Translations under genes and position numbers: made by a program
IMG/VR virus record: IMGVR_UViG_3300008050_000025
Location: 37,826-101,825 of that record
Length of the DNA: 64,000 nucleotides
Reading direction: 5' to 3' (one strand)
DNA from: a virus
Notes under the pieces: generated by a model
The model's input: the letters and a program-made list of their open reading frames with translations, nothing else
What the model was told of the DNA's origin: nothing
Databases searched by the model: none
In this document: positions 1,069 through 54,702 of the stretch, piece after piece
Position numbering within the stretch: the first letter of the stretch is position 1
Layout: every line of letters begins with the position of its first letter

Positions 1069-3926
1069 ATCTCACAAACCCCTGACTTACATGTGTCAAC
1101 AGATTCTGTCAGTATCTCCAACTTGTTCTCAGCAATAAGTACATCCAGGTCTAGTGTGGAATGGTCAATGGCTTCCAGAGGTTCGTTGCCTCTACTACCA
1201 GCCTTATAAAACGTGAGGCCCTTCATCTCTCCGATTCCTCCAAGCACCATTTCAGATAGCTCCGCAGAATACTGTGCTGTGCTAGGAAGATTACAAGTCT
1301 TAGAGATTGCAGCATCAATCTTTGACTGAATGGCTACTTGCATCTTGATATGCTCCTCTGGTGTTACATCATATGCTCCTACGATATGGCTCACATCTCT
1401 CCCCTCCAAGAACATTTTCTTGAACAACGGGTCGATAACTAAAGCCTCATTATACACATCCTCAGTTCCTGTCTTCCACCTTCGCTTATACACAGGGGAG
1501 AAGATTGGTTCGATGCCTGTGGAAACTCCCACCACCATTGCCACTGTGCCTGTTGGAGCTACTGTCAACAATGAAGCATTGCGAAGACCGTTCTTCTTAA
1601 TGTCTGACCTGATACGTGCAGGAAGAGTTTTCATAAACTGCTCATCCTTTAGCTTTCTCCAATCATATGCTTCGAAAGAGCCTTTCTCACGGGCAAGATA
1701 CATGGAAGCCTTGTACGCTTCGTTGCGGAAGGTTTCGAATAGCCTCTCTGTAAACTCAATACATGACTCGGAACCATACCTGTACCCTGCTTTGATTAGG
1801 AACGTGGCAAAGCCTAGAACTCCTAGACCAATGCGTCGGCTCCTATGACCTACCTCTCTGCACTCTTCGATAGGGAAGGTGTTTACCTCAAGGATGTCGT
1901 CCAGATATCTCACGCCCAACCTAATTGTACGAGCGATTCTTCTCCAATCAATCACACCCTCATCAGATACCATATTTGCTAGGTTGACATGTCCCAAGCA
2001 ACAGTTACCAAATGCTGGTAGAGGTTGCTCTCCACAATTCTTAACGCAAATCCCAGAAGACTTAACGTACTTCCCGTCACCATGAGAAGTAATAACGTGA
2101 TAGTTATGGTTATCGTCTACCGTAATGTTGTACACATCCTGAGTTCCAACTTCCTCCACACTCACTACTTTATGGTTGCCAATCACCAAACTTTTGAACG
2201 CCGAGAAGGAAGTGAACCTACATTTCCGATTTACAGAAATAGGGAGACCTTTCTTTATAGCGTATCTCTGCCACAACTTCTTAGTGAACTTTCCTTCATT
2301 GGCGAACACTTTTCTACCATGACCTACCAGCTCATCGTTAGAGACATCCTTCCAGCGACCATTATCCTCTCCTGTATGGGTGGCAAAAGAAACCTTCCAT
2401 TCGTCCGTCATCTTATGGTAGGGGTTATCCTTGCCTTTCATCTTTTCTGCATGAAGTTGTCTATGCTCACCATGAGGCATCGCTTGCAAATTATCCATAC
2501 TGTCGTTCAGACTATTACAATCTATATGATGGATAGCAGTTGTCTTCGGGTCAACGTTTATCCCGTTAAACTCCGCCATAACCCTGTATTGCCTACGGTT
2601 TCTCCGAGCACCTCCGGTCATTTTTGCTCCAACATTAGAAATCTGCCGATAACCATTGCTGTTAAAACTATTCCATGGGAAGACACTTTGCCCTTCATGC
2701 AAATCAGAAAGATTTACATATTCCAATTCCTTTGTAAGAATCTTATGGTTAGGGGTCGCAATTAGTACAGAGCCATCATCTAAAGTTAACTTCCATACCT
2801 TACTACCCTGCCCTGTCATACGTGGGTTTCGGCCCATCTTAATCTCTACCTGACCAGTGGTTAGATTAGTAGAATACACGGGAACGTCCTCACCTTTATC
2901 AGCAAGCTCTTTAATACTTACACCATTCCGACCATCAGCAACAGCAATAATGCTGTCTCCTGCAACACACGGGTTAGTGCTATTGAGTGTTTCAAAGTAA
3001 CTTACATTATTGAACTGGTTTGTGTAGTCTAGGTTAAAGATTCCAGGCTCACCGCACTCCACGGCGTTCCTTAGGATTCTGTCCCACAACTCCTTGGCTT
3101 TCAGGGGAACCTTCACAGCCTCAGAGAAGGTGTCTGACGGCGTTAGAAGGTGGAAGGCACTTGCCACACCTAATGCATCCTCTTCGCTCTTAGCGATGAC
3201 CTTGACGTTATCTACGCCCTGTTCTGACTCTCTTCTCACAGAGTACTGGTCATACCTTACGTGTCTACCCCCAAAAGTGAAGTACCAATCCTCGTTGTTC
3301 TCCACAGCTTCCAAGAATCTATCAGATACTCCCACTGAGATATTAAAGTTCGTAAGCTCATGCCTATCCAGCTTAGCATCTAAGAACTCCATAAAGTCTG
3401 GGTGAGATACGTTAAGGATTGCGATGAGGGCGGTTCTTCTACTCTTCCCTGCCTTTACGTGCGACCCAATCTCATTAATCATCTTCATTGTTGAGATAGA
3501 GCCGGGAGCAGAGAACGGAATGTTCTGAATGCTATCCCCTTTGGGTCGGATGTTTGAGTAATTAAACCCAATGCCCCCACCTGAGCAAGCAATCTTGTAC
3601 ATGTCCTGAATCATCTTGCCAATACTGGCTACTGAATCGTCAGGCTCAAGGACATAGCAGTTAAGCATGTTGTAGTTCGGCCTTCCTGCACCAAACAAAA
3701 TACGCCCCCCAGGAACTAGGTCGGCACTATTGATTGCATCGTAGAATTTCTTTTCCCACTTCGGCTGCTCTTTAATGTCTTCTACAACGGATGCTTGCTT
3801 TGCTGCCCTACGGGAAACCTCACTCCAGGTGCTCTCCCCAGGGAAGAAGTACTTGAGCTTAGCTATGTCTTCGTGAATTGTTCCTTCGGGAATCACGTAT
3901 CCCGGTACAGCAGGCCTATTCCCCAT
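1065..3926 (-). CDS. nrdJ: class II (adenosylcobalamin-dependent) ribonucleotide reductase with intein
   Basis: Reduces ribonucleotides to deoxyribonucleotides using a B12-generated thiyl radical; no beta-subunit gene is needed or seen in the window. Visible signatures are the first redox cysteine (NMLNC, C90), SGGGIGFNYS (115-124), the active-site motif N-P-C-G-E-Q split by an intein (residues 318-319 and 631-634), APTGTVA (790-796), STGIEPIFS (802-810), and the redox C-terminal tail with C946 and C951. NPCGEQPLP and the lack of an N-terminal ATP-cone point to class II rather than class I. The 953-residue ORF is 642 residues once the 311-residue intein is removed. Its start overlaps the co-chaperonin gene by 11 bases and its stop overlaps the next gene (ATGA). 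Confidence 0.93.
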   Translation of the reverse strand: MGNRPAVPGYVIPEGTIHEDIAKLKYFFPGESTWSEVSRRAAKQASVVEDIKEQPKWEKKFYDAINSADLVPGGRILFGAGRPNYNMLNCYVLEPDDSVASIGKMIQDMYKIACSGGGIGFNYSNIRPKGDSIQNIPFSAPGSISTMKMINEIGSHVKAGKSRRTALIAILNVSHPDFMEFLDAKLDRHELTNFNISVGVSDRFLEAVENNEDWYFTFGGRHVRYDQYSVRRESEQGVDNVKVIAKSEEDALGVASAFHLLTPSDTFSEAVKVPLKAKELWDRILRNAVECGEPGIFNLDYTNQFNNVSYFETLNSTNPCVAGDSIIAVADGRNGVSIKELADKGEDVPVYSTNLTTGQVEIKMGRNPRMTGQGSKVWKLTLDDGSVLIATPNHKILTKELEYVNLSDLHEGQSVFPWNSFNSNGYRQISNVGAKMTGGARRNRRQYRVMAEFNGINVDPKTTAIHHIDCNSLNDSMDNLQAMPHGEHRQLHAEKMKGKDNPYHKMTDEWKVSFATHTGEDNGRWKDVSNDELVGHGRKVFANEGKFTKKLWQRYAIKKGLPISVNRKCRFTSFSAFKSLVIGNHKVVSVEEVGTQDVYNITVDDNHNYHVITSHGDGKYVKSSGICVKNCGEQPLPAFGNCCLGHVNLANMVSDEGVIDWRRIARTIRLGVRYLDDILEVNTFPIEECREVGHRSRRIGLGVLGFATFLIKAGYRYGSESCIEFTERLFETFRNEAYKASMYLAREKGSFEAYDWRKLKDEQFMKTLPARIRSDIKKNGLRNASLLTVAPTGTVAMVVGVSTGIEPIFSPVYKRRWKTGTEDVYNEALVIDPLFKKMFLEGRDVSHIVGAYDVTPEEHIKMQVAIQSKIDAAISKTCNLPSTAQYSAELSEMVLGGIGEMKGLTFYKAGSRGNEPLEAIDHSTLDLDVLIAENKLEILTESVDTCKSGVCEI
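2037..2969 (-). other. intein with HNH homing endonuclease inside the RNR
   Basis: In-frame protein-splicing element covering residues 320-630 of the RNR (311 aa). The N-terminal block is CVAGDSIIAV with Cys as residue 1. The B block is LIATPNHKIL with the Thr/His pair T391 and H394, the F block is near VYNITVDDNHNYHVI, and the end is SSGICVKN followed by Cys of the extein. The insert separates TNP from CGEQPLP, so splicing regenerates the catalytic motif. An HNH nuclease core (HHIDCNSLND, then NL, H485, H488, H492) sits at about 466-492. The penultimate residue is Lys629, not the usual His, while the terminal Asn and the +1 Cys are normal. Boundaries were checked codon by codon. Confidence 0.93.
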
Positions 3927-5951: not shown

Positions 5952-6964
5952 TGACCTTGGATTAGTTTAAGAGCATCCATAAGCTCAGTCTTATTGAATA
6001 TTGTATCAGTGTCAGTAATGTACTGTTCAATCATTGCATCATCAAAAGCCAAGACAGAGCCTTGCATGTTCCTAGCAACACCTGCCTTTTGAAATACATC
6101 TTCAAACACTACGTCCATGTGGGCCAAGTCGTATCGCTTAGTAATGTCTTCCTTTATCTGCTTCTCAGCAAACGTGTCCAACGTGTCCACCTTAATCCTT
6201 AGGATAGTAAAGAAGTCTTTGAACTTGTGCTTCTTGTCAAGCGCAGCAATCTCATCAAGCTTTCCAACAATATGTTTAATGCCCGTATTGATTTGAGACT
6301 TCACAACCTCTACCTTTCCATCAGAGATAAGCAGTTCATGAATGTACTTAGTGGTATTGGCTTCACCAAAACTAGTGGCGTACTGTGTGCCTAGTACATA
6401 AACGTTCTCACCATACTTGTATGGTTTGTGAATGTGCCCCAAGAGCGTAAGCCTGTCTTCAAAATGATTCTTCCTTACAACAGAGTCATAAGTATAGCCT
6501 TTCCTAACAAGGCTTCCATTGAAACCAAAGTGTCCGAAGATTGGAAGTGGTGCTGTCTTTTTGATGTCTTGAATAATTCTATCCTCATCATCGTAATGAG
6601 GAATGATTGCAAACTCAACCCCACCAATAGCAACTACTTCTGTGTCAGATACAACCTTTACCCTATCTGCTTCAAACAGCGACAAAGATGTGTCAGACGC
6701 GCCATTACGGACGAGAGTGTCGTGATTACCACGGTTAATAATGATTTGCTTTGCTTTGATTCCATCCAACAACTTTTGGAACGCAAGAAGCTCTCTCCCT
6801 TTCGGGTTTCTACTGTGAAAGATGTCTCCATTGATTACAACAGTGTGAGCTAGTTTCCTATTAGCATAATACAAAAGGGTTTCCACTTGCTTGTCAAGGT
6901 ATCCGTAAAGATAGTTTGAACGCAGGTGGAGGTCAGTTAAAACTACTACTCTATGCTGCGACAT
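5948..6964 (-). CDS. 47: recombination nuclease subunit, gp47/Mre11/SbcD-like
   Basis: Metallophosphoesterase partner of the gp46-like ATPase. The metal-binding motifs appear in order in 338 residues: D-x-H in LTDLHLRS (D11, H13), NGDIFHSR (D47), RGNHDT (N80, H81, D82), then GHFGFNG and LGHIHKPY. The C-terminal third is the capping/ATPase-contact region and has no further motif visible. The start overlaps the end of the polymerase gene by 14 bases and the stop overlaps gp46, giving a compact polymerase-gp47-gp46 order. No Shine-Dalgarno is obvious at the start, so coupling to the upstream gene is likely. Confidence 0.94.
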   Translation of the reverse strand: MSQHRVVVLTDLHLRSNYLYGYLDKQVETLLYYANRKLAHTVVINGDIFHSRNPKGRELLAFQKLLDGIKAKQIIINRGNHDTLVRNGASDTSLSLFEADRVKVVSDTEVVAIGGVEFAIIPHYDDEDRIIQDIKKTAPLPIFGHFGFNGSLVRKGYTYDSVVRKNHFEDRLTLLGHIHKPYKYGENVYVLGTQYATSFGEANTTKYIHELLISDGKVEVVKSQINTGIKHIVGKLDEIAALDKKHKFKDFFTILRIKVDTLDTFAEKQIKEDITKRYDLAHMDVVFEDVFQKAGVARNMQGSVLAFDDAMIEQYITDTDTIFNKTELMDALKLIQGQ

Positions 6965-8582
6965 TTTTGTTATAGTATTCCATAATCTGTTCTTTATTTA
7001 GTACCTTGTAACTGGCATCTTGCTCAACTTCTACGCCACTTCCAAAGGAAACCCCAGCCTCCATGTCTACTTTGAAGGGTACATCAAATGTCCACCCGTA
7101 AAGACCTTTTAGATAACTAAGGTCTGCCATGCAGTAATGCATCAGACTGATTGCCTTATGGTAACTTTCCACAGGAGCTTGAATCTCTAAGGAGTCATGT
7201 ACTGTTGCTACTAGGTCCAATTCGATACCGTGCGTTTGCGACAAAGTGTGAACTCTCCAAATTGAATGAAGCATAAGGTCAGACGCAGAACTCTGAATAA
7301 CAAAGTTTACACCTTGACGTAAAGCTCTCTCTTGGAAAGCTCTCTTAGGGCTATTAACGTTAGGAAGCCTACGACGACGACCGAAGAGACTGGTGGCGTA
7401 ACCTGTTCTCTTAATCTCTGCTCTTGTAGCTTCAATCCACTTTGGAACTCCTGGGAATGCCTTGAAGTACTTACTAAAGATTTCTTTGCAGAACGTCACC
7501 GACTTCTTAATACTAGCAGCAAGCTTGGTAGGTCCACCGCCGTAAACGATAAGGAACGTCACGCTCTTAGAGATTTGTCTCTCCTGAGCAGTAATCTTAT
7601 TGATTGGCTTCTTGAAAATCAGAGAAGCTGTAAACTTGTGCAAGTCTTCCCCAGACTCAAACGCAGCGATTAGGTTCTTGTCTTGAGAGCAGTGAGCTAG
7701 TACCCTAACTTCTGCTGCACTGTAGTCTCCTGAGATGAATACCTTTCCCTTATCAGCACCCATAATACTACGCAAGTTAACGTGCATAGCTTGTGGGTCT
7801 TCATCTTCATCAGGTCTTGGAAGTGTGTGAAAAGATACACCCTTGTTGTACTTCCTGTTAACCATAGAGCCAGCCTTCTTTCCAGGCTCAAGCTTCTTAA
7901 CGTTATAAGACGAGTTAGAAAGTCTTCCTGTCTTGGTTACTGAAAAGTTGTATTGGGAATAAATCCTGCCGTCCTGGTTATACTTAAGAGCCTTAGCCAC
8001 GCCGTAAACATAATCATTCCTCTGCTTAACCCTCTTCTTCCACTCTAAGTAAGTGTCAATGAACTCAGCACCAAGAATTTCCTTAGGCGTAGACTTCGCT
8101 TTTGAATACACATCGTCCCTAATCCTTTTCAAATTCTCTTGGTTAATCTTAGGAAGCTGTGATGCAGCGTTCCACTCTTGAGGGGTTAGCCCAAAACCAG
8201 AATTACCTTTGTCGTCCTCTTCATCTGTAAACAGAATCTCAATAACCCCGTGAGGCTTGTACTCAACATTAGGTAAAGGGTTCTGCCTGTCTAAGATGCC
8301 GCGCAACCTATCAATCTCTTTTGTAAGCTGCTCCTCCAGAACCTTAACGTGGTCAGTGTTAGCCTTGATGCCACGTCGCTCCATATCTCCTACAATAAGG
8401 ATGACTTCGCTGAGAACTTTATCATATGCCTCAGTAACGCCATCGGCTGTCATACCTAATCTAATCTTCTCCTCTAGGTGCAACGTGTAGTTGCAATCCA
8501 TAGCGCAGCCCAAGGCCAGCTTCTCCATCGGGACATTGGCCCAATCAGTTTTGGAGGCATCTTCTCCTTTAATGTTTAACAT
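6951..8582 (-). CDS. polA: family A DNA polymerase, polymerase part (split gene)
   Basis: 543 residues with the complete Pol I polymerase domain: TGRLSNSS (218-225), motif A ISGDYSAAEVRV with catalytic D286, motif B R-x3-K-x3-F-x3-YG (R335, K339, F343, Y347, G348), and motif C ATVHDSLE with H462 and D463. The first 35 residues are not polymerase. They are the end of the 3'-5' exonuclease domain, including CAMDCNYT, which matches the Exo III site (D29), although the usual Tyr position is Gly. The missing front of that domain is in the next gene upstream, in another frame. The ATG lies one base after the upstream TAA (TAATATG), allowing stop-restart coupling. Confidence 0.93.
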   Translation of the reverse strand: MLNIKGEDASKTDWANVPMEKLALGCAMDCNYTLHLEEKIRLGMTADGVTEAYDKVLSEVILIVGDMERRGIKANTDHVKVLEEQLTKEIDRLRGILDRQNPLPNVEYKPHGVIEILFTDEEDDKGNSGFGLTPQEWNAASQLPKINQENLKRIRDDVYSKAKSTPKEILGAEFIDTYLEWKKRVKQRNDYVYGVAKALKYNQDGRIYSQYNFSVTKTGRLSNSSYNVKKLEPGKKAGSMVNRKYNKGVSFHTLPRPDEDEDPQAMHVNLRSIMGADKGKVFISGDYSAAEVRVLAHCSQDKNLIAAFESGEDLHKFTASLIFKKPINKITAQERQISKSVTFLIVYGGGPTKLAASIKKSVTFCKEIFSKYFKAFPGVPKWIEATRAEIKRTGYATSLFGRRRRLPNVNSPKRAFQERALRQGVNFVIQSSASDLMLHSIWRVHTLSQTHGIELDLVATVHDSLEIQAPVESYHKAISLMHYCMADLSYLKGLYGWTFDVPFKVDMEAGVSFGSGVEVEQDASYKVLNKEQIMEYYNKNVAA

Positions 8583-48349: not shown

Positions 48350-50038
48350 TTAGAAACCTGTCCTTCGGGGGTAAGCAATCATTGTTCCGTTGTCATCATA
48401 ACCAATCCCCGCAGCCCTATTTAGTGCTGCGCGATATACGGACAATTGTTCTTGGCTAGTTTTGGCAATCTTTTCTAAAGCAAGAAGTATGGCCCTTTGG
48501 TCATCTCCTGCCTTAGCGAGCGCCTGAGCATCGGCAACAGTATCAATAGCCCCAGCCCTGCTAAGATAATCCATCATGCGTTGATTTTGTGTCCCTATCT
48601 GGTCGGTTCCAAACAAAGAATCCGTAGCTCTCCCAATGCCTAACGTTTCACTTAGTTGTCCTGAACGGGCTAATGTGTCCGCGTCCCACCCCCCGATTGC
48701 TTGCCAAGTAGAAATGTCGCCCTTGGCAAGGTCCATTATTCCCCTCCAGTTTTCGGGGGCAAAGATATCCTCCATACGTCCAGCCGCTGATTTCAACGCG
48801 TCGGCAGCAGGTTGCACATGGTCCATAGCTACGGATTTAAAGGATAAGTACGCATCATTAGCAATATCAAATGATTCAGGCATCTTCTCAATAAGGATAC
48901 CTGTCATCTTATTATAAAAATCACTGATGCCTGTGAAGAATTTCTCAGCCATATCTGACAAGGAGGTGTCGGTAATGTTAAAAGATTTCTTAAAGTTATC
49001 AATTCCTTCCTTGACGAAGTTGGAAGAATCTCTTGTAATACTTGTAATAAATGTTACGTACTCAATACCAAGTCCAATGAACTCAGCTTGAATCGTAGCA
49101 ATCATCGTGTTCCACGCACGAACAAAGTCAAGACGTTGTTGTGTTGAAACGATGGAATCAAACCCATTACCACCAAGATTAGAGTCAAACAGATTATTTT
49201 CTCTGTTCCTCTTAGCCAAAGCTAACAGTTGCTGGGAGATACCGTAGTGGTTAGCCGCGACATCGGCCATAAAGGAAATATCTCCGCCACCTAATACTTT
49301 ATCAAATCTGTCGGCAATGTTATCCAACAGACGGCTTGCTGCATCTCGGTATCCGATAGCTCCACGGTCGCCCAAACCACCTGTGCCCCCTAATTTAATA
49401 GCAGTAGTAAACTCTTTAGCTGTGGAACCAGCAACCAACCCCATAAGTTCCTGAACAGCGCCTTGGAACTGAACGCCACCTGCGGCTGTCATGTATGCAA
49501 GAGCAGACTGGAAACCTTTCGACGCTCCTGCGCCGTATTGGTTAGAAATCTTATTGCTGGTCTCGGCGGAACTCTTTACGGCTTGAGCTATAAAGTTGGA
49601 ATCAATGTGAAACCTACTACCAAGAGTCACCATCTCTCTAACAAGTCTGTCAGAGGCATTAAGGTTCATCCCTAGGATTTCAGTGTTGAACGCAAGGCTC
49701 TCAGCGAACAACTTCTCGCTCAAACCAAGCTTGGTAATCCCGGTGAGCGTGTTCTTGGCTCCTGCTTTGTAGTCCCTAAAGCCTACTTTAATAGCAGTGC
49801 CGACCTGGGCAAATGATTCCCCAAGCGTGAGACCTGATTGCCTCATTTGACGGGCTAGGCTTTCCCCGCCCTTATCTAATAGGAGCTGTTGCTTTCCAAC
49901 ACGAACCATCTCTGTCCATGTTGAAAGTAGGTTGTCGGAACCTTTATCCCACCTGTCACCGAAGTTACGAGCTTCACCCGTAGCCTTTCGGATAGCCGCA
50001 GTTAATGCTCCTATGTCTTCCCTAATATCATCAGCCAT
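48350..50038 (-). CDS. tail tape measure protein
   Basis: 562 residues, largely helical, with a coiled N-terminal region (about 1-130), alternating Ala/Gly-rich helices (VAGSTAKEFTTAIKLGGTGGLG), and a C-terminal helix (ALLALEKIAKTSQEQLSVY). There is a glycine-rich hydrophobic middle part. Length is close to T4 gp29 (590), whose length sets the tail length, implying a tail of about T4 size. No peptidase domain is visible. It lies at the expected place downstream of the gp26-like/chaperone genes and upstream of baseplate hub genes. One-base overlap with the 50038-50496 gene. Confidence 0.78.
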   Translation of the reverse strand: MADDIREDIGALTAAIRKATGEARNFGDRWDKGSDNLLSTWTEMVRVGKQQLLLDKGGESLARQMRQSGLTLGESFAQVGTAIKVGFRDYKAGAKNTLTGITKLGLSEKLFAESLAFNTEILGMNLNASDRLVREMVTLGSRFHIDSNFIAQAVKSSAETSNKISNQYGAGASKGFQSALAYMTAAGGVQFQGAVQELMGLVAGSTAKEFTTAIKLGGTGGLGDRGAIGYRDAASRLLDNIADRFDKVLGGGDISFMADVAANHYGISQQLLALAKRNRENNLFDSNLGGNGFDSIVSTQQRLDFVRAWNTMIATIQAEFIGLGIEYVTFITSITRDSSNFVKEGIDNFKKSFNITDTSLSDMAEKFFTGISDFYNKMTGILIEKMPESFDIANDAYLSFKSVAMDHVQPAADALKSAAGRMEDIFAPENWRGIMDLAKGDISTWQAIGGWDADTLARSGQLSETLGIGRATDSLFGTDQIGTQNQRMMDYLSRAGAIDTVADAQALAKAGDDQRAILLALEKIAKTSQEQLSVYRAALNRAAGIGYDDNGTMIAYPRRTGF

Positions 50039-50604: not shown

Positions 50605-50877
50605 ATGAACGACCTATCCTCAGAAACCAAAGAACTGTTTGAGCAGATTGCGTATGGTCTATCCCTTGAATTCAGGGAAAAGTGGAAGCACAGATACGGA
50701 ACCCATCTAATCCTGATTTTCCAGGAGAGGATACTGAACTGTCTGGAGACACAAAAACCAATCGCTAAAGAGACCCTCCTCCAGACCATGTGCAGGAAGC
50801 ACAAATACAACCAGAGTATTATTGAAGATTTCTTTAGCGAAATAGATATTGGACTCTACAAGCCCTTGATTAAGTAG
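50605..50877 (+). CDS. small helical protein, unknown function
   Basis: 90 residues, charged and helical throughout, with no recognised domain. Segments LFEQIAYGLSLEFREKWKHRYG and FQERILNCLETQKP are likely amphipathic helices; C48 and C63 are the only cysteines. It is one of few plus-strand genes in the structural region and its last 8 bases overlap the convergent Cas4-like gene. No Shine-Dalgarno is evident; a run of seven A precedes the ATG. The real-gene status rests on its compact fit and length. Confidence 0.6.
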   Translation: MNDLSSETKELFEQIAYGLSLEFREKWKHRYGTHLILIFQERILNCLETQKPIAKETLLQTMCRKHKYNQSIIEDFFSEIDIGLYKPLIK

Positions 50878-51718
50878 ACTTCTTTTTAGCGTCCTGCTCA
50901 GCGTAGTAGGCCTTTCGCGCTTCTTTAGCTTCCTCAATCATTTGGGCTTTGCACTCAAACTCCTTGTCGATTGCAGCTTGGCTATTATGAGCAGGACATA
51001 TCCCACGCATGTCACACCAGTCGCAGAACTTATTAATCCTAGGCTTGAACTCATCAGTCTTCAACTTACGAATCGACCAGACTTCGTTCTTGAGTTTACG
51101 TTGAACGTATTGTTCTACCTTAGCTCCAGGAATCCTTACGGACACTAGCTTGTTCTGGACAGGATACCAGTGAGCCATCGTAATCTTATTGTACGGAATA
51201 TTGTACATGTGGTGTACAGCGAATGTGTACATGAGCATTTGTGGGTCTGAGTAAAGCTCTGTAGGAGTTTTCATCCTCTTGCTTGTTTTATAGTCGATGA
51301 CCAAATATCCGCCATCTTCACCTATTATAACACGGTCGATGATACCGTTGATGCTGAACGAGTCAGCCTCTACCTTGAAGCTATCCTCGGCTCCTACGGT
51401 CTTACTTAAGGCCTTGTTGAACGTGAAGAAGTTACTGATGCAGTTGGCAATCTTCTTCTTTCCATATCCTTTAGGACCCGATGTAGCAAACTCATACTTC
51501 GGTTTAATCTCTTCTGCAATCTCAAACAACTCCTCAACAGTTTCGCACTCAAAACCTAGTTCAAAGATTCTGTGAATGTACGAACCAAACTGTAGCGCAT
51601 CCGTGCTCTGTTTGTCGTTGAAGACTCCTGGTAGTTTTCTCACGTATTTGCAGTGATACTTGAAAGGGCACTCGTTAAAAGTGTTGATTTTTGTTGGGCT
51701 TACGGTTTTTATATACAT
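50870..51718 (-). CDS. Cas4-like PD-(D/E)XK nuclease with predicted Fe-S cluster
   Basis: The start is placed at the ATG at 51718 because AGGAGG lies seven bases upstream; this gives 282 residues and a normal family N-terminus, VSPTKINTFNECPFKYHCKY. The residues of RecB/Cas4 nucleases are visible: G-S-Y-I-H49, GIIDRV (D128) and IDYKTSK (D142, K144), then a QLxxY-type helix (PQMLMYTF). Four cysteines, C17 and the C-terminal C232, C235 and C241, match the Cas4/AddB-type 4Fe-4S pattern. Phage Cas4-like proteins act as 5'-3' exonucleases; the job here is probably DNA-end processing in replication/recombination. It is divergent from primase with a two-base overlap of the starts. Confidence 0.88.
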   Translation of the reverse strand: MYIKTVSPTKINTFNECPFKYHCKYVRKLPGVFNDKQSTDALQFGSYIHRIFELGFECETVEELFEIAEEIKPKYEFATSGPKGYGKKKIANCISNFFTFNKALSKTVGAEDSFKVEADSFSINGIIDRVIIGEDGGYLVIDYKTSKRMKTPTELYSDPQMLMYTFAVHHMYNIPYNKITMAHWYPVQNKLVSVRIPGAKVEQYVQRKLKNEVWSIRKLKTDEFKPRINKFCDWCDMRGICPAHNSQAAIDKEFECKAQMIEEAKEARKAYYAEQDAKKKST

Positions 51719-52700
51719 GTATGTACCTCCTACAGTTATTATAGAGTATCTGCACTCTAAATTCTCTGACTTCTCTGAGACCAGCAGTGAGTTCGTCATT
51801 AACTCCATCTTTGAGCCTGACGACCGGAAGAAGATGAGCATCAACCTGGAGACTGGTCTATGGCAGGATTTTAAGTCTGGGGAGAAGGGCAACTTCTTCC
51901 ACCTAGTCAGCTTCGTAGAACATATTTCGTACAAGGCTGCGACGCTGTTCGTGGCCAAGAAGCTTCTCAACACTCCCGACCTTTTATTCTTTAGGTCTGA
52001 CGTTGAGCAGCGAGGGGTGAACCTTTCTAAGAAGACCGCTTCCCTAGACCATTACAAGGATACGTTTGTCCCAGTGTTTGGAACTGCTCCAGGATACACC
52101 GAGCATTTCCCTGAGAAGCTAGCATACGAGTTCGTTAAGGAGAGGGGTTTAGAGAAGTTCAAGTTCTACGTTGGAGTAGAGGGGGCCTTTGTAAATCGCA
52201 TCATCATCCCTTATGAAGATGAGAGTGGTCTGTTCTTCTTTCAGGGTCGTGCCCTCTTTAATAGCAAGATGAAGTATAAGAATCCTCACAAAGAGGAAAG
52301 TACTTTAAAAGCGTCAACTGTTCTGCTACCTTTCTCCAAAGAGGCTGACTACGTGTTTGTAACCGAGGGGCCTATTGACGCTCTTAGTTTGAAGGCACAC
52401 GGCATTAATGCTACGTGCGCTAACGGAAGTATTATCTCCTACGAGCAAGCAAAGATGCTTAAAGGTAAAACGGTAGTTATGTCTTTTGACAATGACGACG
52501 CAGGCAAGAAGGGGACGAAAACTTCCGTTAAGATTCTTCGTAACGTAGGAGTAGAAACAATCTGGTACTGCAACCCCCCAAAGCCTTATAAGGATTGGAA
52601 TGAGATGCACGTCGAGGCTCCTGCTGAATTACAGGCCCACGTTAGGGGCAGCATTCGCAAGTCTACCGTTCTCTATAGGATTACCTCAGAACTACTATAA
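51717..52700 (+). CDS. DNA primase, gp61/DnaG-like with Toprim
   Basis: From the ATG at 51717, 327 residues. Primase region: an N-terminal part laid out like the CHC2 zinc-binding domain (SINLETGLWQDFKSGEKGNFFHLV, 41-64) but with none of the metal-binding cysteines. The RNA-polymerase/Toprim core has FVTEGPIDALSL (E217, D221) and MSFDNDDAGKKG (D258, D260), followed by YKDWNE. It should lay RNA primers for lagging strands with the helicase. The start is unusual: no Shine-Dalgarno, and the ATG shares the CATG palindrome with the divergent Cas4-like start. A longer version starting at TTG 51660 would overlap that gene and is unlikely. It ends by overlapping the convergent 331-residue gene by 20 bases. 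Confidence 0.88.
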   Translation: MYVPPTVIIEYLHSKFSDFSETSSEFVINSIFEPDDRKKMSINLETGLWQDFKSGEKGNFFHLVSFVEHISYKAATLFVAKKLLNTPDLLFFRSDVEQRGVNLSKKTASLDHYKDTFVPVFGTAPGYTEHFPEKLAYEFVKERGLEKFKFYVGVEGAFVNRIIIPYEDESGLFFFQGRALFNSKMKYKNPHKEESTLKASTVLLPFSKEADYVFVTEGPIDALSLKAHGINATCANGSIISYEQAKMLKGKTVVMSFDNDDAGKKGTKTSVKILRNVGVETIWYCNPPKPYKDWNEMHVEAPAELQAHVRGSIRKSTVLYRITSELL

Positions 52701-53676
52701 ACCTTTGGCTTAGGATAGTTTCTGTTAGCAAGGTGAACTTAAGCTGAATCTCATACTTGCCTGACACAAGGCCGTAGCCTTCCGTAGCGTTTGCAATAGC
52801 TGTAAGTGCTGCGGTGTCCCACAGGAACATAACATCATCATGGGACGTTACTCTTGTCGATGCAGCGGTGTCTGCAAAGCCTGACACTTCGTATCTTGAA
52901 TCAAGGTTAGACTCTTCATTCAGCTTTACGATACGTACCTGGGCATCACGAATAACTGAGTCTCGGAAGATGTTCTTCTCCGCCAAGGACATGTTCTTGT
53001 TGGCTAGGCCAAGGTTCACGCCAAAGACTAAGTTCTCCTCGGAACCTATTTGGACATATCGGTTTCTCATCTTGACTGATGGGACGATATCGAGAGGCTC
53101 AGTAAACGTCACTACTGAGTCTTGGGACAGGCTAAACGTATGGACATATGTTACGAGGCTCCCGGTTTCCGTATTACGTAAAGTCCAAATATCGAAATAG
53201 TTTCCTACCTGTAAACCACTTGCAGCAATTGTCTTAGATGACCCGTCTTCCTCAGTGCCAGAGATTCCAGGTCGAAGGACAACAGAGAACACACCTTCAT
53301 CATAATTGTCAGCCCTGTAGACCCCGCTAGCAGCGGAAGCGTCCAGGGAATACCCAGAGTTGTCATAGCTTGTGCTGGTTACCAAAGTGTCCGGTGCTGC
53401 AAACCTAAAGATGGAATCATCGTACATTGACGACGCTACCAATCCGTACCTGACAGATGAGCCTTGGAGGTCCAAGAGGTTCTCAGGAAGGCCATTGGTA
53501 ATGTAAGGGAACTCAGTACTTGAAGAGGTTGTATCTTTGAAGATATGAACGGAAGATACTTCATACGGGTCGGAATACCCTCCTCCCACAACGTAGTGCA
53601 TCTGTAGCTCTACTCTCTCTTCCGTGGCTGGCCTATTATGCCTAGGGACTACAGTGATTGAATTTAGTTGTGACAT
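52681..53676 (-). CDS. virion structural protein, unknown function
   Basis: 331 residues, Ser/Thr/Asp/Tyr-rich, mostly beta in appearance, without membrane segments. Features: SSTEFPYITNGLPENLLD, then a middle of short strands (GNYFDIWTLRNTETGSLVTYVHTFSLS) and a C-terminal strand IQLKFTLLTETILSQRFIVVL. No enzyme motif. It follows the gp26-like frameshift region (stop of the -1 frame ends 10 bases before its ATG, with AAGGAG in between) and is in the tail assembly position, so a tail-completion or connector role is possible. Family not recognised. Confidence 0.7.
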   Translation of the reverse strand: MSQLNSITVVPRHNRPATEERVELQMHYVVGGGYSDPYEVSSVHIFKDTTSSSTEFPYITNGLPENLLDLQGSSVRYGLVASSMYDDSIFRFAAPDTLVTSTSYDNSGYSLDASAASGVYRADNYDEGVFSVVLRPGISGTEEDGSSKTIAASGLQVGNYFDIWTLRNTETGSLVTYVHTFSLSQDSVVTFTEPLDIVPSVKMRNRYVQIGSEENLVFGVNLGLANKNMSLAEKNIFRDSVIRDAQVRIVKLNEESNLDSRYEVSGFADTAASTRVTSHDDVMFLWDTAALTAIANATEGYGLVSGKYEIQLKFTLLTETILSQRFIVVLR

Positions 53677-53686
53677 ACTGTATTAT

Positions 53687-53914
53687 TTACTCCTTTGGAC
53701 GAACCTCCTCAAGGAGTTCTTTATACACCTTTAACAGGACCTCCCTGTCCCGAAAGGTCAAGGAGGAATACAGACTATGGCTGATTCCCTGATACTCAAA
53801 CAAACTAGCCTCCCTCAGGAGGTTTTCGGCTGTCAGCCGTGCGACTAGTTCGGAGTAAAAAAATCCTTGCTCAATCCTAGAGCAATTTGATTGTCTTGGT
53901 GACAAGCGTTGCAC
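53687..53914 (-). CDS. -1 frame extension of the gp26-like protein (likely frameshift product)
   Basis: This frame overlaps the end of the gp26-like gene and has no ATG; its first possible start is GTG 53914, without a ribosome site. The part beyond the overlap (56 residues from YSELVARLTAEN to EVRPKE) is helical and acidic/basic with no domain. It begins exactly at the seven-U run where the gp26-like frame could slip back one base, giving a 338-residue fusion. This layout (small product, -1 frame extension, close upstream of the tape measure) is the hallmark of tail assembly chaperone pairs such as lambda gpG/gpGT. An independent 75-residue protein remains possible. Confidence 0.65.
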   Translation of the reverse strand: MQRLSPRQSNCSRIEQGFFYSELVARLTAENLLREASLFEYQGISHSLYSSLTFRDREVLLKVYKELLEEVRPKE

Positions 53915-54702
53915 TGGAAGATTACCATCTTCTCCATCCCATAATCGCTGCCATACACAGAGTTGTGAACTGTATCAACATCTCTCAAAGTGGTTCCTTG
54001 CAAGAACGCAAAGATGATTTTGCTGTCAGTTACTTCATCAACAGATAGGATGAATCGGTGAAGATTCATATACATGTCGTTAATGCTTCCTGTGTGCATT
54101 TCGTCCTTTACTGCGGGATGCCTTGCGACAACAGTAGTTTCAGAGTCTGGGAGCTTTAGAGTGATGGTGTTGAGATTTTCCTGGGCGTACTTCACAGGCA
54201 GGGTCTCAAGGTCAATTTGGAGCTTGTTAATCTTTCCACACTCCTTATTGGTGCAGGTGCTTTCCATTGGATAGATGTTACCCCAGGTAAGTTCTCGCAG
54301 TTTAAACAGGAGGTAGTCTCGGTCAGGAAGGGTTAAATACTCCCCAGGAACTCCTTCAACGCAGCGGCTAATAACCTGAGAGATTCCTGCTGTAACGTCG
54401 CCTTGGAGGTTCTTTAGGTCAAGCTCGTCTTGGAAATTGAATGGTCTGATTTTGACCGTAGCCACTCCATTGTATGCGTGTCCCCCGGATGGGAGGTTTA
54501 CGCTGACCCATTCTTTCTTACCCTGTACCTTTGCTAAGAGATTGGTTAAAATGTCACTATCCACATTGGTCTGTGGCGCATCAATAGTTTCGGAAGCTTT
54601 CACAGACTCTAGCATCTTTTCCTTATTCAAGACAGGGGGCGCATCCATAGGTTTAAAGTCGCCTGATTGGGCCATATCCATAATACTTTGGTCTTTTTCC
54701 AT
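53845..54702 (-). CDS. 26: baseplate/tail assembly protein, T4 gp26-like
   Basis: From the ATG at 54702 (MEKDQSIMDM) 285 residues. It resembles the T4 baseplate assembly family (gp26/gp51): WVSVNLPSGGHAYNG, VKIRPFNFQDELDLKNL, VISRCVEGVPGEYLTLPDRDYLLFKLRELTWGNIYP. A probable zinc site is formed by CTNKEC and CNAC (four Cys with a CH near 266-270). T4 gp26 helps assemble the hub. It ends with the U-run FF-TPN where frameshifting may add 56 residues. Divergent from the UvsW-like gene; the start region shows no clear ribosome site but CATAATAG lies about 10 bases upstream. Confidence 0.8.
   Translation of the reverse strand: MEKDQSIMDMAQSGDFKPMDAPPVLNKEKMLESVKASETIDAPQTNVDSDILTNLLAKVQGKKEWVSVNLPSGGHAYNGVATVKIRPFNFQDELDLKNLQGDVTAGISQVISRCVEGVPGEYLTLPDRDYLLFKLRELTWGNIYPMESTCTNKECGKINKLQIDLETLPVKYAQENLNTITLKLPDSETTVVARHPAVKDEMHTGSINDMYMNLHRFILSVDEVTDSKIIFAFLQGTTLRDVDTVHNSVYGSDYGMEKMVIFQCNACHQDNQIALGLSKDFFTPN
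53857..53863 (-). other. candidate -1 ribosomal frameshift heptamer U UUU UUU
   Basis: In the zero frame of the gp26-like gene the codons are GAT TTT TTT ACT, so the run of seven U is placed as U UUU UUU, a perfect X XXY YYZ slip site. Three codons later the zero frame ends (AAC TAG). Two downstream hairpins, CGGCTG/CAGCCG at 53839-53827 and CCTCC/GGAGG at 53822-53809, could stimulate slipping, though the spacer of 17 bases to the first is longer than usual. Confidence 0.65.

Follow-up and report, generated by a model that had tools for sequence, protein, structure and literature searches.

A gp26-like gene of a divergent T4-type phage lineage probably encodes short and long tail assembly chaperones through a -1 ribosomal frameshift

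One gene of this phage probably yields both a short and a long tail assembly chaperone, the long form by -1 ribosomal slippage on a run of U; on the comparative sequence evidence given below we put the probability of this reading at about 0.88. The gene lies in the window, a 64 kb stretch of a 101,825-base virus record, and all features of the chaperone locus are on the minus strand. T4-type head and tail genes in the window include a portal (phrog_213), a terminase, a T4-type major head protein, a protease, gp25 and a gp6-like wedge protein. The parts of the locus that matter most are as follows.

53845 to 54702, minus strand: gp26-like gene, proposed short tail assembly chaperone (TAC-N), from PF12322, phrog_150 and an AlphaFold2 model
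53857 to 53863, minus strand: slip heptamer T TTT TTT in the register of the zero frame, in register in relatives too
53687 to 53856, minus strand: -1 extension, proposed gp51-like C-terminal domain, 56 codons and a stop, from homology to the relative L122 and codon-position bias

The majority of ribosomes would translate the gp26-like frame as far as its stop, releasing a 285-residue short chaperone. A minority would move one base back on U UUU UUU at 53857-53863, with re-pairing of tRNA-Phe, and read 56 further codons, making a long form of 338 residues. If the pair works like lambda gpG/gpGT and T4 gp26/gp51, the short form would coat the tape measure protein, the C-terminal domain of the long form would recruit tail-tube subunits, and neither form would stay in the virion. 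The sequences show the two frames, their conservation and the lack of another way into the extension in relatives; that ribosomes slip, how often they do so and that the products act as chaperones is what we infer here.

The gp26-like open reading frame runs from an ATG at 54702 to a TAG at 53845 and encodes 285 aa. In a profile search, the protein matches PF12322 (the T4_baseplate/gp26 family) with E=5e-19, scoring 69 bits against a curated cut-off of 24.5 and covering profile positions 6-218 of 219, which places it in the gp26 family. It also matches phrog_150, "baseplate hub" (E=4e-19). An AlphaFold2 model (mean pLDDT 74) resembles viral gp26-family models, and its best fold match is the SP-15 baseplate hub subunit (E=4e-18). 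A Foldseek search of the model against the PDB and a profile search of PDB sequences both returned no match; consequently, no solved tail chaperone structure can be linked to the protein. The tail assembly chaperone role named in the original prediction fits the gene, with gp26 as the short form and gp26 plus a gp51-like C-terminal domain as the long form.

The sequence of the window bears out the predicted frame arrangement. The heptamer at 53857-53863 is in slip register and is followed directly by ACT CCG AAC TAG, placing it three codons ahead of the gp26 stop. From there the -1 frame (YSELVARL...EVRPKE) continues for 56 codons and ends at 53687, so that the predicted fusion has 282+56 = 338 aa; a recount of the frames returns both product sizes, 285 and 338 residues, as originally given. 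The GGAG of the next gene (ATG at 53676) sits within the end of the extension, which fills the intergenic gap exactly. Phe-Phe codon pairs occur 19 times in 24 large genes of the window; 18 of the 19 are TTC-first, and the single TTT-first pair is the slip site. Phe codon use by the phage is TTC 407 and TTT 249. A 56-codon frame stays open by chance in 3% of dinucleotide shuffles of the window sequence.

The second frame could instead be a separate short gene, like the annotated cyanophage gp51, with a start of its own or entered by termination-reinitiation, an explanation that we regard as unlikely. The original prediction held that the -1 frame has neither an ATG nor a ribosome site; there is indeed no ATG, but a TTG 44 nt past the gp26 stop has a good ribosome site, AGGGAGG, 5 nt upstream, and this TTG counts against frameshifting as the only entry in the window. 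A GTG/TTG pair also lies in the overlap of the two frames. Neither this pair nor the TTG downstream is conserved in the relative L122, and the 18 extension residues ahead of the TTG are among the best conserved.

L122 (IMG/VR 3300002231_000844) was found by a scan with the window portal, to which its own portal is 63% identical, and is an unusually clean natural test, with a second frame lacking any other entry. Its gene order is that of the window: portal, next head gene, gp26, extension, a 331-aa gene, an ORF in the place of the nuclease, a 152-aa gene and a tape-measure-like gene. Between the two phages the -1 extension is better conserved (60% identity over 57 aa) than the gp26 part (44%). 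The heptamer of L122 is G TTT TTT, followed by A, and a TGA closes the -1 frame immediately upstream, so that this frame opens just 16 nt before the gp26 stop, at the slip run. The position of the candidate TTG of the window is ATC in L122, where the first ATG, GTG or TTG of the second frame lies 74 nt past the gp26 stop. Protein conservation of the extension between window and L122 begins at the slip point. Because the -1 frame is closed upstream, has no start until +74 and is conserved from the slip point onward, a shift on the run or right beside it must give access to the L122 extension, and frameshifting is its only plausible entry. One feature of L122 counts against -1 slippage: after a slip on G TTT TTT, re-pairing is perfect in the A-site only.

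The extension itself is, judging from codon positions, under protein-level selection. Differences between window and L122 number 19, 13 and 34 at the first, second and third codon positions, with pS 0.93 versus pN 0.28. For L122, the 56-codon frame is open in 0.15% of dinucleotide shuffles.

The slip run and the -1 frame are kept well beyond this pair of phages. Relatives were drawn from phage records and IMG/VR and gave 85 dereplicated -1-type loci. The C-terminal Phe-Phe is TTT-first in 85/85, and the heptamer is T TTT TTY, with the codon before it ending in T, in 84/85, the remaining one being the G TTT TTT of L122. A scripted count returned 83 T TTT TTY and one G TTT TTT (L122), and scored one locus, L003, as TTTCTTC owing to its three Phe codons; read by eye, L003 has GGT TTT TTC TTC, that is T TTT TTC, giving the total of 84. 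Within the gp26 gene bodies of these relatives, 57 of 77 Phe-Phe pairs are TTC-first. The -1 frame is open for at least 45 codons, or up to the contig end, in 85/85. These 85 loci do not represent 85 independent events, many being marine cyanophage-like and related, and the taxonomic spread of the run, which takes in Kyanoviridae, phages of Vibrio, Aeromonas, Sinorhizobium, Caulobacter and Stenotrophomonas and the window lineage, is the stronger point. The alignment of relatives proposed with the original prediction thus supports the -1 frameshift reading through the conservation of both run and frame, and several relatives are without a usable second-frame start. Scans of GTDB genomes gave zero relatives, and no PF12322 match came from Immutovirus or Microcystis phage Mel-JY01, whose portals are similar.

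The same comparison bears further on the separate-gene explanation. An ATG stands 5 or 14 nt past the gp26 stop in most cyanophages, a stop-start overlap in phiN3, Cr30, CZ01 and YB07 would permit re-initiation, and GenBank annotates gp51 as its own gene. However, the slip run is retained even where an ATG exists, and the annotated gp51 of C48C1 and P-HM2 starts about 75 and 90 nt, respectively, past the gp26 stop, inside the conserved domain. In five of the 85 relatives (L004, L010, L015, L019 and L122), the second frame has no ATG, GTG or TTG until at least 40 nt past the stop. L003 (LR756511, a 595 kb phage; 6834-7106) has its T TTT TTC 69 nt upstream of the gp26 stop; after a slip both frames continue for about 20 codons, and a TAATG start is present too.

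Transcriptional slippage, in which RNA polymerase adds or drops a U on the T run, would give the same product and the same pattern of conservation, and the window run of 7 T suits it. The runs of the relatives have only 6 T (TTTTTTC, or GTTTTTT in L122), shorter than those usually needed for transcriptional slippage in bacteria, and the run is preserved in ribosomal slip register; this explanation is very unlikely. In a single genome, a one-base homopolymer indel, whether a sequencing error or the decay of a once continuous gene, would look like the arrangement seen here. Another IMG/VR record of the window phage, L122 and 84 further relatives all share this frame relation, and there is protein-level selection on either side of the junction. 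Conservation therefore refutes a remnant or error, to which we attach almost no probability.

One RNA structure is predicted 3′ of the slip site in the window.

53793 to 53857, minus strand: predicted RNA three-way junction, possible local stimulator, from RNA folding

The original prediction described two strong downstream hairpins. These are present, as the two arms of a single predicted three-way junction closed by an outer helix and starting exactly where the slip site ends (-32.7 kcal/mol, z -2.16, with 6 of 200 shuffles equally stable). The same region of L122 folds without comparable stability (z -0.4). A conserved stimulatory structure was consequently rejected, the window folding well 3′ of the slip site and L122 not.

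In two sister groups, the extension is in the +1 frame instead of the -1 frame. In a freshwater-type IMG/VR clade (L033-L041; for example L038, gp26 at 2408-3187), gp26 ends in an invariant TGG TTT TAA and a conserved extension follows in the +1 frame, as if tRNA-Phe had left UUU for the UUU that overlaps it at the stop. UUU UAA is thus a candidate +1 frameshift site, with the stop codon as stall signal. In SP-15, LIS04 and GXN1 (L005, L006 and L007), a gp51-like extension is in the +1 frame, and the common NCC CGA TTY before the gp26 stop is a candidate +1 site. The +1 extension in SP-15 implies that the short ORF annotated after SP-15 gp26 is a fragment. We lean slightly towards the view that, within one chaperone family, one route to the long form has repeatedly replaced another, the fusion being kept and the direction of recoding changed. 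The routes may include -1 slippage on a U run (the window, cyanophages and many T4-like phages), +1 shifting at UUU UAA (L033-L041), +1 shifting around NCC CGA (SP-15, LIS04 and GXN1) and two separate genes (T4).

Downstream of the extension, the window contains the following genes.

52681 to 53676, minus strand: next gene, 331 aa, with its ribosome site inside the end of the extension and a 60% identical gene in L122
51660 to 52700, plus strand: primase/toprim-like gene (from a reading of its sequence), separating the chaperone pair from the probable tape measure
50870 to 51973, minus strand: exonuclease gene, in the same interval
48350 to 50038, minus strand: probable tape measure gene, 562 aa, from a helical model and the match of its L122 homologue

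The 331-aa protein directly follows the extension in both phages and is better conserved than gp26 (60% versus 44%). L122 has the same ORF arrangement as the primase/toprim-like and exonuclease pair. The model of the probable tape measure is all-helical but too poor to use (pLDDT 37), and its 573-aa homologue in L122 weakly matches the tape measure family phrog_24709 (E=0.007). The chaperone pair had been placed upstream of the tape measure, as is usual for such genes; a probable, weakly identified tape measure gene does lie downstream on the strand of the pair, but it is separated from the pair by about 3.6 kb and other genes and is not adjacent. The tape measure or a large tail gene comes straight after the pair in cyanophages and SP-15-type phages, and in SP-15, LIS04 and Cr30 the tape measure is adjacent to the pair or nearly so.

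T4 itself offers a precedent for the two forms. In T4 gp51 (249 aa), a single ORF joins a gp26-like (PF12322/phrog_150) domain to a phrog_634 C-terminal domain; the short form is gp26. T4 gp26 is homologous to the zero frame of the window gene, and gp51 has the layout of the fusion. Unlike the window, T4 has no frameshift, and its two forms come from separate, diverged genes that lie on opposite strands. In T4, then, the fusion is a normal protein, which argues that the frameshift product is functional. According to a review of the T4 tail, gp26 and gp51 are hub assembly chaperones and gp51 is absent from the particle (PMC3004832). In Cronus, the long form is likewise a separate gene 51 with the same two domains, and the gp26 Phe-Phe is coded TTC TTT, without a slip run, a natural control.

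The gp51 C-terminal profile phrog_634 is matched by the cyanophage, Vibrio and Aeromonas extensions but not by those of the window and L122, although the latter agree in length and position. Comparison of the window extension with gp51 C-termini by hhalign gave a non-significant probability of 0.2%, a point against the proposed reading.

The layout of a short and a frameshift-extended long chaperone encoded ahead of the tape measure is that of lambda gpG/gpGT (PMC5009743), and the window probably shares it with lambda and with the cases of -1 frameshifting in tail genes that Xu, Hendrix & Duda 2004 surveyed. The lambda short form belongs to a different family from window gp26, as far as tested. 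The slip sequence of lambda is GGGAAAG. The view that a frameshift falls outside the standard account of the gp26 family has been overtaken: Vladimirov, Gautam & Davidson 2022 (Virology 566:9-15), a study cited in PMC12846349 and PMC10885494, identified the tail assembly chaperones of T4-like phages. Compared with these, the window phage is divergent, with gp26 about 20-28% identical, an extension without a detectable gp51 match, and genes between the pair and the probable tape measure.

As described by Sullivan et al. 2010 (PMC3037559), cyanophage gp51 is without the first ~200 residues, at only about 20% of the normal length. In public annotations of cyanophages and T4-like phages, gp51 begins at an arbitrary codon inside the gene or is left out (L004, 6747-6851; L009, 2789-2881; L015, after 2705), most likely because the true entry is a frameshift. 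A frameshift would thus account for the oddly short cyanophage gp51, whose annotated starts are most likely artefacts of a frameshifted gene. The window would add a divergent phage lineage to those with a frameshifted gp26/gp51 chaperone, a kind of gene already described for T4-like phages.
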